NCBI RefSeq assembly: GCF_003611035.1
Contig: NZ_CP030033.1
Coordinates: forward strand, 2,046,001-2,110,000
Direction: 5' to 3'
DNA from: Cryobacterium soli
GTDB taxonomy: Bacteria; Actinomycetota; Actinomycetes; Actinomycetales; Microbacteriaceae
Length of the DNA: 64,000 bases
Below, in pieces: positions 30,760 to 34,760 of this stretch. The position numbers and the translations under genes were made by a program. Under the pieces are notes generated by a model. It saw only the letters and a list, made by a program, of their open reading frames with translations, did not search any database and had not been told where the DNA came from. Numbering within the stretch: the first letter of the stretch is position 1; every line of letters begins with the position of its first letter.

Positions 30760-31734
30760 TTAGAAGTCCCAGTCGTCGTCTTCCGTATTGACGGCCTTGC
30801 CGATGACGTACGAGGAGCCCGACCCGGAGAAGAAGTCGTGGTTCTCGTCGGCGTTCGGCGACAGGGCCGAGAGGATCGCCGGGTTCACGTCGGTGACGGC
30901 CTTGGGGAACATCGGCTCGTAGCCGAGGTTCATCAAGGCCTTGTTGGCGTTGTAGTGCAGGAACTTCTTGACGTCTTCGGTCAGGCCGACTTCGTCGTAG
31001 AGGTCCTGGGTGTACTGGATCTCGTTCTCGTAGAGCTCGAACATGAGATTGAAGGTGTAATCCTTGATCTCGTCGCGACGCTCCTGGGTCTCCTTCTCGA
31101 GGCCCTTCTGGAACTTGTAGCCGATGTAGTAGCCGTGCACCGCTTCATCCCGGATGATCAGACGGATGAGGTCGGCCGTGTTCGTGAGCTTGGCGCGGCT
31201 CGACCAGTACATCGGCAGGTAGAAGCCCGAGTAGAACAGGAACGACTCGAGCAGGGTCGAGGCGACCTTGCGCTTGAGCGGGTCGTCGCCCTGGTAGTAG
31301 TCCATCACGATGGACGCCTTCTTCTGCAGGTTGACGTTCTCGGTCGACCAGCGGAACGCCTCGTCGATTTCCTTCGTCGAGCACAGCGTCGAGAAGATCG
31401 ACGAGTAGCTCTTGGCGTGCACGGACTCCATGAACGCGATGTTCGTGTAGACGGCCTCTTCGTGCGGGGTGATCGCATCCGGGATCAGCGACACGGCGCC
31501 GACGGTGCCCTGGATGGTGTCCAGCAGGGTCAGGCCGGTGAACACGCGCATGGTGAGCTGCTGCTCAACCGGGGTGAGGGTGTTCCAGGACTGCACGTCG
31601 TTGGAGAGCGGGATCTTCTCGGGCAGCCAGAAGTTGTTGACGAGGCGGTTCCAGACCTCGACGTCTTTCTCGTCTTCGATCTTGTTCCAGTTGATCGCGT
31701 CAACGTGGGAGACGAGCTTGAGCTTGTCAATCAT
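30760..31734 (-). CDS. nrdF: Class Ib ribonucleotide reductase, beta subunit
   Basis: A 324-residue radical-bearing subunit. The metal-binding helices are visible as [13 protein letters not shown] and [15 protein letters not shown], with the N-terminal [14 protein letters not shown] typical of NrdF. It holds the dimanganese or diiron tyrosyl radical needed by NrdE to reduce ribonucleotides to deoxyribonucleotides. The C-terminus ends in DDDWDF, the peptide that docks on NrdE. Its ribosome binding site AGAGGA lies inside the 3' end of the upstream homing endonuclease gene, with which it overlaps by 8 bases. It ends at a strong terminator. Confidence 0.97.
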
Positions 31735-32554
31735 GTTTTTTTCCTCTTGGTGATACGTCGTTGATCGAGCTTGTCGAGATCTGAGCCGAGTCTTCGACGC
31801 AGTACTTGCATTCGGGCTTCAACACGCCCTTGTTGGTGTGATACCGGGTATGAGCACTGCGTTTACTCTTCGGCTGCGGAATGCCTTTGGTTGCGGCCGA
31901 TAATTTTGCAATGGTCTCAGCACTGGTTGTCTTACCAAAATTCGGATTCAACGGACCTCGACGCTTGGCCGCCAGAATGAGCTTCGCCTCGTCCGACATC
32001 GTATGGCCGAAGCCTGGGTGATCTGATCCAAACTTACCGAAGTTGGGGTTGTCTGCACCTGTATGAGTGCCCTTCCGAGATTCGCTCCAACGGGCCCTCT
32101 GCTCGTCAGAGTGGCTCCGACCATACATCGGGTTGTCCACTCCATAGCGTGGCTGTATCGAGCGGCCCGTGGAGCGTATTCGCGCGGCCTCCCGCTGCTC
32201 TAGCGACCATTCGATTCCGGTCGGACCCAATCCCCCTTCCGAGAGATTGAGAAGCCTGTCACCCTGTGCCCGCAGTTTCGCTATCCACAACACCTCAGCC
32301 TTGCCGAGGTCTTCCAGAGTGCTAGTCACTACCTGAAGCGACTGCACATAGACGAATTCGGTAGGCGCTTTGCGCAGCCAGTCGTAAAACGGGTTGCGAA
32401 CGCCCATCTCAGCTTTTCGCCTGTGCTGTTGCATTCGCCGGCGAATGCTGGCGGTCGTGAGCCCGACGTAGCGGAACTCCGGAGATGTCTCGAGTCGGAC
32501 GCCATAAATGACACCGATGATACTTCCCGGAAGCGGCGACTTCGCCAGGCTCAC
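31727..32554 (-). CDS. GIY-YIG homing-endonuclease-like protein inserted between nrdE and nrdF
   Basis: A 275-residue protein. The GIY-YIG nuclease domain (about 10-110) has V15-I-Y17, Y29-V-G31, R39 and E87. The R-to-E spacing of 48 equals that between R27 and E75 of I-TevI, and N103 follows in [10 protein letters not shown], so the active site looks intact. Three or four NUMOD3-type DNA-binding repeats follow (NPMYGRSHS from 141, NPNFG from 169, HPGFGHT from 179, NPNFGKTTS from 203), then a possible zinc finger H235-X3-H239-X9-C249-X2-C252. GTG start with AGAAGGG upstream, 46 bases after the nrdE stop. Base composition is lower (about 50% G+C at 31861-31920). Probably of phage origin. Confidence 0.9.
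31758..31781. repeat. 24-bp dispersed repeat, copy 2
   Basis: Same unit as at 20528-20551 with one difference and opposite orientation. It lies inside the last codons of the homing endonuclease gene and encodes the ISTSSIND part of its C-terminus, past the zinc finger. It may be old nrd spacer DNA that became coding when the element inserted. Confidence 0.7.
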
Positions 32555-32600
32555 GTTTGTGCCCTTCTCTATATGCTCAGGCGGCTCACAGCGAACTCAC

Positions 32601-34760
32601 TCATAACGCACAGGAAACACAACCCTCAACCTCCGTGCCCTCGAGGGCCATCTGGCGCAGACGGATGTAGTAGATCGTCTTGATGCCCTTCTTCCACGCG
32701 TAGATCTGCGCGCGGTTGATGTCGCGGGTCGTGGCGGTGTCCTTGAAGAACAGGGTCAGCGAGAGGCCCTGGTCCACGTGCTGCGTCGCCGCGGCGTAGG
32801 TGTCGATGACCTTCTCGTAGCCGATTTCGTAGGCATCCTGGTAGAACTCGGTGTTGTCGTTCGTCATGAACGGCGCCGGGTAGTACACGCGGCCGAGCTT
32901 GCCTTCCTTGCGGATCTCGATCTTCGAGGCGATCGGGTGGATCGACGCGGTCGAGTTGTTGATGTACGAGATCGACCCGGTCGGCGGCACGGCCTGCAGG
33001 TTCTGGTTGTAGATGCCGTGTTCCATGACGGATGCCTTGAGCTCGGCCCAGTCGGCCTGCGTGGGGATCTCGACGTTGGAGTTGGCGAACAGCTCGGCGC
33101 CGCGGGCGGTGGCCGGCTCCCAGACCTGGTCGGTGTACTTGTCGAAGAAGGCACCGGAGGCGTAGGTGGAATCGGCGAAGCCCTCGAAGGTGATGCCACG
33201 CTCGATGGCGATCTTGTTGGAGGCACGCAGGGCGTGGAACAGCACCGTGTAGAAGTAGATGTTGGTGAAGTCGATGCCCTCTTCGCTGCCGTAGTACACC
33301 CGCTCGCGGGCGAGGTAGCCGTGCAGGTTCATCTGGCCGAGGCCGATGGCGTGCGACTTGTCGTTACCGCTCTCGATCGAGCGCACCGACGCGATGTGGC
33401 TCTGGTCGGAGACGGCGCTGAGTCCCCGGATGGCGGTGTCGACGACCCGGCCGAAGTCAGGCGCATCCATGGCCAGCGCGATGTTCATCGAGCCCAGGTT
33501 GCAGGAGATGTCCTTGCCGATGGTGTCGTAGGAGAGGTCCTCGTTGTACGTGGTCGGGGTGTTGACCTGGAGGATCTCCGAGCACAGGTTCGACATGTTG
33601 ACGCGGCCCTTGATGGGGTTCGCCTCGTTCACGGTGTCTTCGAACATGATGTACGGGTAGCCGGACTCGAACTGGATCTCGGCGAGCGTCTGGAAGAAGT
33701 CGCGGGCCTTCATCTTGGACTTCTTGATGCGCGGGTCGTCGACCATCTCGTGGTACTTCTCGGTGACCGAGATGTCGGCGAACGGCACACCGTAGACGCG
33801 CTCGACGTCGTACGGGGAGAACAGGTACATGTCCTCGTTGTTCTTGGCCAGCTCGAAGGTGATGTCGGGGATGACCACACCGAGCGAGAGGGTCTTGATG
33901 CGGATCTTCTCGTCGGCGTTCTCGCGCTTGGTGTCGAGGAAGCGCATGATGTCGGGGTGGTGCGCCTGCAGGTACACCGCGCCGGCACCCTGGCGGGCAC
34001 CGAGCTGGTTGGCGTAGCTGAAGGAGTCTTCGAGCAGCTTCATCACGGGGATGATTCCGCTGGACTGGTTCTCGATCTGCTTGATCGGCGCACCGGACTC
34101 ACGGATGTTGGACAGCAGCAGGGCCACGCCGCCGCCGCGCTTGGACAGCTGCAGCGAGGAGTTGATGCCCCGGGAGATGGACTCCATGTTGTCTTCGATG
34201 CGGAGCAGGAAGCAGGAGACGAGCTCGCCGCGCTGGGCCTTGCCGGAGTTGAGGAAGGTGGGCGTGGCCGGCTGGAAGCGGCCGGCGATGATCTCCTCGA
34301 CGAGGGCGACCGCGAGGTTTTCGTCGCCCTGGGCCAGGCCGAGGGCGGTCATCACGACGCGGTCCTCGAAGCGCTCGAGGTAACGCTTGCCGTCGAACGT
34401 CTTCAGCGTGTAGGAGGTGTAGTACTTGAACGCGCCGAGGAAGGTCTGGAAGCGGAACTTCTTGGAGTACGCCAGGTCGTTGAGCCGGGTGATGAACTCG
34501 AAGCTGTACATGTCGAGCACGGCCTGCTCGTAGTACTCCTTCTCCACCAGGTAGTCGAGGCGCTCGCGCAGCGAGTGGAAGAACACCGTGTTCTGGTTCA
34601 CGTGCTGCAGGAAGAACTCCCGGGCAGCCTCGCGGTCCTTGTCGAACTGGATCTCCCCGCTCGGACCGTACAGGTTGAGCATGGCGTTCAGGGAGTGATA
34701 GTCCATGTCCAGGCCTGACGGCGGGCTGATCGGGGTGACCTTCACGGCTGTTGCTTCCAA
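32601..34760 (-). CDS. nrdE: Class Ib ribonucleotide reductase, alpha subunit
   Basis: A 719-residue catalytic subunit. Motifs include the first active-site cysteine in [17 protein letters not shown], the catalytic NLCSEI stretch and [19 protein letters not shown]. The C-terminal CVSCAL carries the cysteine pair reduced by NrdH. It makes deoxyribonucleoside diphosphates. Its start overlaps nrdI by 19 bases. No intron or intein is seen within it. Downstream, instead of nrdF, comes the homing endonuclease gene. Confidence 0.97.

Follow-up and report, generated by a model that had tools for sequence, protein, structure and literature searches.

The window analyzed here is a stretch of 64,000 nucleotides (nt) from Cryobacterium soli (contig NZ_CP030033.1, positions 2,046,001 to 2,110,000 of the forward strand). 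Its minus strand contains an operon for class Ib ribonucleotide reductase in the order nrdH-nrdI-nrdE-gene-nrdF, and here we investigated the gene that lies between nrdE and nrdF. We consider it highly likely that this is a freestanding GIY-YIG homing endonuclease gene anchored to the 3′ end of nrdE, with cleavage and co-conversion at that place as the proposed mechanism. The case for a rewritten nrdE end rests on three distant genera and a phage, and not on the Microbacteriaceae, the window's own family. The reading draws on sequence data, namely the predicted fold, the position of the gene, empty sites in relatives, discordant divergence, a tract in a phage, an nrdE end shared by carriers of three genera, and broken copies. 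From these we infer the cleavage itself, the exact place of the cut, immunity, expression, and loss.

The gene spans positions 31727–32554, encodes 275 amino acids from a GTG start, begins 46 nt 3′ of the nrdE stop codon, and at its own 3′ end shares 8 nt with the start of nrdF. A previous sequence-only reading of the window had reported the same gap and overlap, which the open reading frame (ORF) coordinates confirm, although its span of 31727–32601 also took in the 46-nt spacer up to nrdE. Pfam matches NUMOD3 repeats, as had been claimed, in three stretches (E 3e-12) and GIY-YIG at 20.7 bits, under the gathering cut-off of 22.6 bits. These two are the sole Pfam matches of the gene product up to E 1, with no HNH match, and PHROG 314, “homing endonuclease,” is matched at 1.3e-17. 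An alignment of 39 sequences (the window's protein and 38 relatives) shows no variation at residues Y17, Y29, R40, E87, and N103; the sequence-only reading had named the same active-site residues except that it placed the arginine at position 39. The same alignment shows H235, R237, H239, C249, and C252 to be invariant as well. The zinc finger proposed earlier is a conserved finger-like HxRxH...CxxC motif that would presumably bind metal.

The structure model has a mean predicted local distance difference test (pLDDT) score of 74 and a predicted template modeling (pTM) score of 0.40, with the catalytic part at about 85–93. Its best PDB match is the catalytic domain of I-TevI (1ln0), with a target-normalized template modeling (TM) score of 0.78 and a Foldseek E value of 5.6e-3; Foldseek returned no PDB matches at 1e-3. 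The I-TevI DNA-binding domain (1i3j) was matched by a family profile at E 0.0073, whereas a single-protein search gave a chance hit only. The gene has a GC content of 0.565, lower than that of nrdE (0.625) and nrdF (0.595), as had been noted, and its GC content at third codon positions (GC3) is 0.634, versus 0.94 in each of the two neighbors. The genome contains one copy. We rejected a group I intron or intein, as no Rfam family reached its gathering score within the window, no group I intron was found, and both nrdE and nrdF are whole: NrdE matches TIGR04170 over residues 1–698 of 698, and NrdF matches TIGR04171 over residues 2–316 of 316. Furthermore, the group I intron endonuclease family TIGR01453 scored 44.7 bits, under its cut-off of 56.05. 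With its GIY-YIG residues, its modular DNA-binding part, and its place outside an intron or intein, the gene is, as judged from its sequence, of the freestanding homing-endonuclease type.

Next, we consider where the gene is present, absent, or broken. NrdF was matched in 56 of 57 Cryobacterium genomes, and 55 nrdE-nrdF junctions were readable (G032 and G039 were left out of the 57 because of unreadable junctions). Three of the 55 are occupied, in the window's genome (G000) and in G017 and G048, whose nrd regions have the sequences of Cryobacterium sp. 1639 and Cryobacterium sp. PH31-AA6. The other 52 are empty, with spacers of 30–206 nt. The sequence-only reading had looked to such a comparison for empty sites, and these were found; a gene carried by all relatives was not. 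At E 1e-15, 398 genomes drawn from the family gave 5 with a match, 396 from the order gave 12, 394 from the class gave 5, and 301 from another family in that class (f22) gave 11; among 198 genomes of the phylum, the window's own was the only one. These draws overlap each other. Across the genus set and these draws, 28 distinct genomes have a match, and in 27, window included, the gene lies directly after nrdE. In the 28th (G003, locus L008), an open frame of 531 residues partially matches the GIY-YIG part at 35%, on a stretch without an nrd match, and this weak hit away from nrdE was dropped from the position count. Stops or frameshifts break 7 of the 27 copies, including 6 of the 11 f22 carriers and G467. 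At L086 (G1005), an endonuclease remnant follows nrdE, and the rest of that stretch shows no NrdF match.

Three further genera were read at this junction from 50 or 51 genomes each, and carriers made up 4 of 30 loci in g120, 3 of 30 in g90, and 7 of 29 readable loci in g79; L187, a stretch without NrdE, was dropped from these readings. The family comprises 616 proteins at E ≤1e-15 among 4650 candidates. Cellulomonas, Arthrobacter, Mycolicibacterium, Nocardia, and others are named among the 120 matches listed, with gene context mostly unread. The nearest named relatives are chromosomal, from Cryobacterium (95% and 66% identity) and Cellulomonas (53%), and metagenome proteins of unread context are 80–85% identical to the window's protein. 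A plasmid vehicle was rejected, as the plasmid matches were partial, at about 31% identity, and confined to seven plasmids of Bacillus.

The nrdE 3′ end, and not the nrdE-nrdF pair, defines the site, because in genus g217 of f22 the gene follows nrdE without nrdF nearby. We sampled 30 g217 loci out of 39 genomes with NrdE. None has an NrdF match in the ~1.5 kb 3′ of nrdE (one locus offered only 160 nt), and in three of them an endonuclease match starts 50–55 nt after the nrdE stop. Among the f22 carriers, 6 of 11 lack an NrdF match in the available sequence. The sequence-only reading was therefore right about the location but took the pair for the anchor. In 6 of the 39 g217 genomes, we also observed that the protein match is split at about NrdE residues 177–186, within an open frame of about 1150–1220 amino acids, which looks intein-like.

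Divergence among the carriers points to horizontal movement. As a yardstick of synonymous divergence (dS), we used the reciprocal-best orthologues that G000 (224 kb compared) shares with G017 or G048 (120 kb each). Being codon-biased, nrdE and nrdF were misleading as a yardstick, and we used nrdI and then the neighboring orthologues instead. Pairs with a ratio of nonsynonymous to synonymous divergence (dN/dS) of ≥0.5 were dropped (5 of 39 for G017 and 3 of 32 for G048); the sets that were kept include nrdE, nrdF, and the endonuclease gene. Between G000 and G017, the gene has a dS of 0.19 versus a median of 0.47 over 34 pairs; three pairs are lower, nrdE and nrdF among them. Between G000 and G048, its dS is 1.79, the highest of 29 pairs with a median of 0.64. 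A second, full-gene estimate gave 0.15 and 1.34, respectively. A merely fast or merely slow gene cannot give both extremes, so at least one carrier acquired the gene sideways. Weaker support comes from the congeners L067 and L083, with a gene dS of 1.24 versus 0.14 for codon-biased nrdE. Selection on the gene is purifying, with dN/dS at 0.12–0.22 in 10 of 12 pairs, two of which involve L085, whose copy contains a stop. The remaining two pairs are the widest: one is saturated, and the other has a dN/dS of 0.26 with a dS of 1.73. The protein tree mostly tracks host families, and the Cryobacterium copies cluster within it (support 100/99). We set aside tree incongruence as proof of transfer, with approximately unbiased (AU) tests at p 0.088 and 0.277.

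A search for phage homologues, also suggested by the sequence-only reading, matched 26 phage records, and we read the gene context of five. Arthrobacter phage Talia1610 has a homologue, gp111, at 32% identity between nrdE and nrdF. The match lies by thymidylate kinase in Sixama, by a capsid gene in WaterT, and among hypothetical proteins in GMA2. Three relatives of Talia1610 are empty at the junction, with 90 nt in Racecar, 90 nt in Mimi, and 84 nt in Atuin. Talia1610 and Racecar are 99–100% identical over ~2.4 kb upstream, and their nrdE genes show 9 mismatches in the first 2009 nt and 31 in the last 130. Their nrdF genes differ at 86 of 951 nt, patchily. Seven distinct viral contigs contain the gene, all after nrdE. 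Divergent nrd genes are found on contigs of 158.6 kb (L073/L201), 37.6 kb (L203), and 21.5 kb (L076/L204), as well as on a 5-kb contig (L075/L202) with the same NrdE match as L073/L201, and L074 is intermediate in nrd type. The short L071 and L072, with bacterial-type nrd genes, may be chromosomal. In Acinetobacter phage PhT2 (L090), the fifth phage whose context was read, the GIY-YIG gene is flanked by nrdA.1 and td, and another homing gene lies past nrdA.

The end of nrdE itself differs between carriers and empty relatives. For this comparison, L080, L084, L085, and L104, carriers from other draws, were added by hand, and carrier frequencies here are not population frequencies. L173, L175, L179, and L115 repeat L067, L083, L070, and L004 and were dropped from the GC3 and asparagine counts. 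Over the last 15 nrdE codons, carriers have lower GC3 than empties in g217 (0.567, n = 4, vs 0.886, n = 27; p 0.0006), g120 (0.733, n = 4, vs 0.918, n = 26; p 0.004), g90 (0.689, n = 6, vs 0.800, n = 27; p 0.033), and g79 (0.876, n = 7, vs 0.927, n = 22; p 0.045), with p values that ignore relatedness within genera. The preceding nrdE codons show no significant difference in GC3 between carriers and empties, the nearest being g79 at p 0.059. Across g120, g90, and g217, the last 42 coding nt of nrdE are 0.766 alike among carriers versus 0.718 among empties, a value reached by 1 of 5000 within-genus label shuffles, and four bins further upstream show no such likeness of carriers across genera. 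L085 and L086 were kept out of the cross-genus means; L085 is in the permutation test and L086 is not.

In many carriers, asparagine (Asn) replaces glycine (Gly) before the CVSC motif near the C-terminus of NrdE, whose cysteines we take to be redox-active. The change is found in 4 of 4 carriers and 0 of 26 empties of g120, 5 of 6 carriers of g90, 4 of 4 carriers of g217, and 7 of 8 other f22 carriers. The exceptions in g90 and f22 are L085 and L086, both broken copies, while other broken copies have Asn. Among six further carriers, L079, L081, and L082 have Asn, and L068, L069, and L071 do not. One empty g217 genome (L228, G1574) has the carrier-type nrdE end LQGTEIENCVSC and is a candidate for a ghost left by a copy since lost.

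Several results weigh against co-conversion at the nrdE end. In Cryobacterium, GC3 over the last 15 codons is not significantly lower in carriers (0.667, n = 3, vs 0.759, n = 50; p 0.097), and the window's nrdE end is common to some empty close relatives. Asn is absent in Microbacteriaceae carriers, with 0 of 7 in g79, 0 of 3 in Cryobacterium, and none in the abovementioned L068 and L069. Empties have it too, 4 of 27 in g90, 2 of 27 in g217, and 3 of 50 in Cryobacterium. The border at ~45 nt was set after the codons had been seen, and a first test of flank similarity, by regression, was weak (p 0.027, 0.24, 0.20, and 0.10). In phages, the difference between Talia1610 and Racecar runs past nrdF, where a Racecar gene is missing and identity is 0.60–0.99 per 100-column block. 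Because the differences continue beyond nrdF, more than one exchange may have taken place, with a sharp left border and an undefined right border. Finally, as to movement in general, a single clade for the Microbacteriaceae copies is not rejected (the AU p of 0.088).

The other border of the gene lies at the start of nrdF. The final codons of the G000 and G017 copies correspond to the spacer found in empty relatives, so that the reading frame continues through spacer-like DNA and ends inside nrdF. Over the last 75 alignment columns, which include 15 of nrdF, the empty G004 agrees with G000 at 53 of 55 bases; in G048, the third carrier, the tail differs (35 of 55 bases). Elsewhere, a carrier-specific stretch precedes nrdF in 6 of 6 carriers and 0 of 27 empties of g90, 9 of 10 loci and 0 of 22 empties of g79, and 4 of 5 loci and 0 of 26 empties of g120. 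These counts are of loci, some from one genome and with the repeats retained, and the patterns were written after seeing the sequences. A tail derived from the host spacer holds in the window's lineage, but we rejected it as a rule for all carriers. The RBS-like stretch (ribosome-binding site) of nrdF, AAGAGGAAA, falls inside the endonuclease gene, as the sequence-only reading had stated. With either type of tail, nrdF retains a start signal, and the gene may couple or limit NrdF synthesis, as the sequence-only reading had suggested. We also observed that palindromic repeats of the CTCGACAAGCTCGA type fill many empty Cryobacterium nrdE-nrdF spacers (e.g., L012, L030, and L027), and the last codons of the gene in the window include one half of a repeat of this type.

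We propose that the NUMOD3 and finger part would bind an nrdE allele without the gene and that the GIY-YIG domain would cut nrdE near the conserved C-terminal codons. Repair off the carrier allele would then bring in the gene together with the adjoining nrdE end and leave an altered target. Because a consensus scan of positions 30700–35700 found no promoter (shuffles average 1.1), the gene would be read from the nrdHIEF message, and by ending at the nrdF start it would leave nrdF a usable start signal. Copies would afterwards decay and then be lost. In its strong form, each invasion overwrites the last ~14 nrdE codons, with Gly changed to Asn next to CVSC in several families, the allele becomes immune, and a ghost end outlives the decayed gene; we see this form as an even call.

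Convergent selection for uncut codons could also produce a shared nrdE end, with the gene still a homing endonuclease. It would account for lower GC3 and shared codons near the target only, which co-conversion predicts as well, so that both fit the footprint. However, the shared Gly-to-Asn change and the abrupt block of 31 of 130 nt in Talia1610 both look imported. Co-conversion is favored, and we regard convergent recoding as unlikely, if by no means far-fetched. Transfer of the whole nrd operon between genera, with the gene as a passenger, seems exceedingly improbable. In its favor, nrdE and nrdF of G000 and G017 are closer than the orthologue median, though both are codon-biased. We rejected it on the comparison of nrdE segments, since 180–600 nt before the stop a carrier is far closer to empties from its own genus (0.880) than to carriers from another (0.736). 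Furthermore, NrdE of the Microbacteriaceae forms one clade (support 95/91).

The purifying selection, the host-tracking protein tree, and the Microbacteriaceae one-clade test described above would also suit a vertically inherited or domesticated nrd gene, such as a DNA-binding regulator, lost in most relatives. Such a history is hard to reconcile with occupancy of only 3 of 55 junctions, a divergence that falls under the genome yardstick in one comparison and over it in another, 7 broken copies among 27 genomes, and phage homologues in the same place, and we hold it to be highly improbable. The sequence-only reading had pictured a phage-type element that moved into a chromosomal operon. The homing-type gene, the empty sites, the horizontal movement, and a phage homologue in the same place agree with this picture, but a recent jump from a phage into Cryobacterium is not supported. 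Phage homologues in the same place and the low GC3 of the gene would be expected from a recent direct import of the window's copy from a Cryobacterium phage. Yet clear-phage copies are 32–43% identical to the window's protein versus 53–95% for the named chromosomal relatives, and the Cryobacterium copies group together, which makes this origin very unlikely. A freestanding homing endonuclease at the nrdE 3′ end is the reading we retain, with the features in Table 1.

Table 1. Features of the nrd region, in positions of the window
Feature	Positions	Strand	Evidence and remarks
Freestanding GIY-YIG/NUMOD3 homing-endonuclease gene, 275 amino acids, GTG start	31727..32554	-	ORF, Pfam, PHROG, alignment, fold
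GIY-YIG catalytic domain, residues 14–103	32246..32515	-	Pfam, alignment, fold
NUMOD3 repeat region, about residues 138–223, best stretch 183–219	31886..32143	-	Pfam; outer limits from alignment
Zinc-finger-like HxRxH...CxxC, residues 235–252, invariant	31799..31852	-	Alignment; metal binding presumed
C-terminal codons matching the nrdE-nrdF spacer of empty Cryobacterium; hold the nrdF RBS-like stretch 31740–31748	31735..31781	-	
46-nt spacer, nrdE stop to gene; first ~20 nt common to some empty relatives	32555..32600	-	
Last 45 nt of nrdE, proposed target and co-converted tract	32601..32645	-	Footprint in other genera and phage; Cryobacterium not significant
nrdE, class Ib ribonucleotide reductase large subunit, whole	32601..34760	-	
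nrdF, class Ib small subunit, whole	30760..31734	-	
nrdI	34742..35203	-	
ORF holding nrdH, glutaredoxin domain, true start uncertain	35282..35686	-	

Other small genes were also seen between nrdE and nrdF. Five empty junctions (L150, L152, and L159 in g90; L178 and L180 in g79) have spacers of 316–647 nt with small ORFs, several of them basic (e.g., MANGSYRSAKTGRYVTPKYGKSHPSTTVKESK), and perhaps represent another kind of insert at the same place. The Microbacterium phages Pumpernickel (L094) and Cece (L095) have four and three small hypothetical ORFs there, respectively.

Freestanding homing genes have been studied mainly in phages, an emphasis shared by the papers we sampled. Here, one family in bacterial chromosomes, beside an essential operon, presents alleles that are occupied, empty, broken, or possibly ghosts, to which a near-identical phage pair with and without the gene is added. 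The full homing cycle, phage-host exchange, and what a selfish gene does to an essential enzyme become directly testable, and the sequence of the nrdE C-terminus in carrier bacteria may reflect invasion rather than adaptation. We found no report of a chromosomal nrdE endonuclease family in the open-access literature searched, a search that did not extend to subscription papers or preprints. Co-conversion, and freestanding endonucleases close to the ribonucleotide reductase genes of phages, have already been described (PMC3653736, PMC2988022, PMC10448857, and PMC1564403). The last of these also reports freestanding GIY-YIG genes in bacteria, with a homing group that is most likely phage-derived in bacterial hosts.

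Like the window's gene, the Seg endonucleases of phage T4 (SegF and others) are GIY-YIG and freestanding between genes. Several seg genes are promoter-less, and Seg endonucleases move with flanking co-conversion (PMC2988022 and PMC1564403). The window's gene differs in being chromosomal, in its NUMOD3 repeats and finger-like motif, in its place at a class Ib nrdE, and in that its cleavage is a prediction. The freestanding mobE and Hef of T4-like phages both cleave nrdB, and mobE is an HNH endonuclease between ribonucleotide reductase genes (PMC2988022). There, mobE lies in a phage between class Ia nrdA and nrdB, whereas the window's gene is GIY-YIG and chromosomal, with nrdE as its probable target. 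I-TevI, the td intron endonuclease, shares the catalytic fold and a NUMOD3-type DNA-binding part but is encoded in an intron (PMC2988022), unlike the window's gene. Introns and inteins in nrdE and nrdF of phages (SPbeta, Twort, A9, and P1201), several with endonucleases, concern class Ib genes too (PMC3653736); they interrupt the genes, whereas the window's gene comes after nrdE. Finally, Talia1610 gp111 is a homologue in the same place, nrdH-nrdI-nrdE-gene-nrdF, but it is phage-borne, its annotated start overlaps the nrdE end, and its record is labeled only as a G-I-Y Y-I-G endonuclease.

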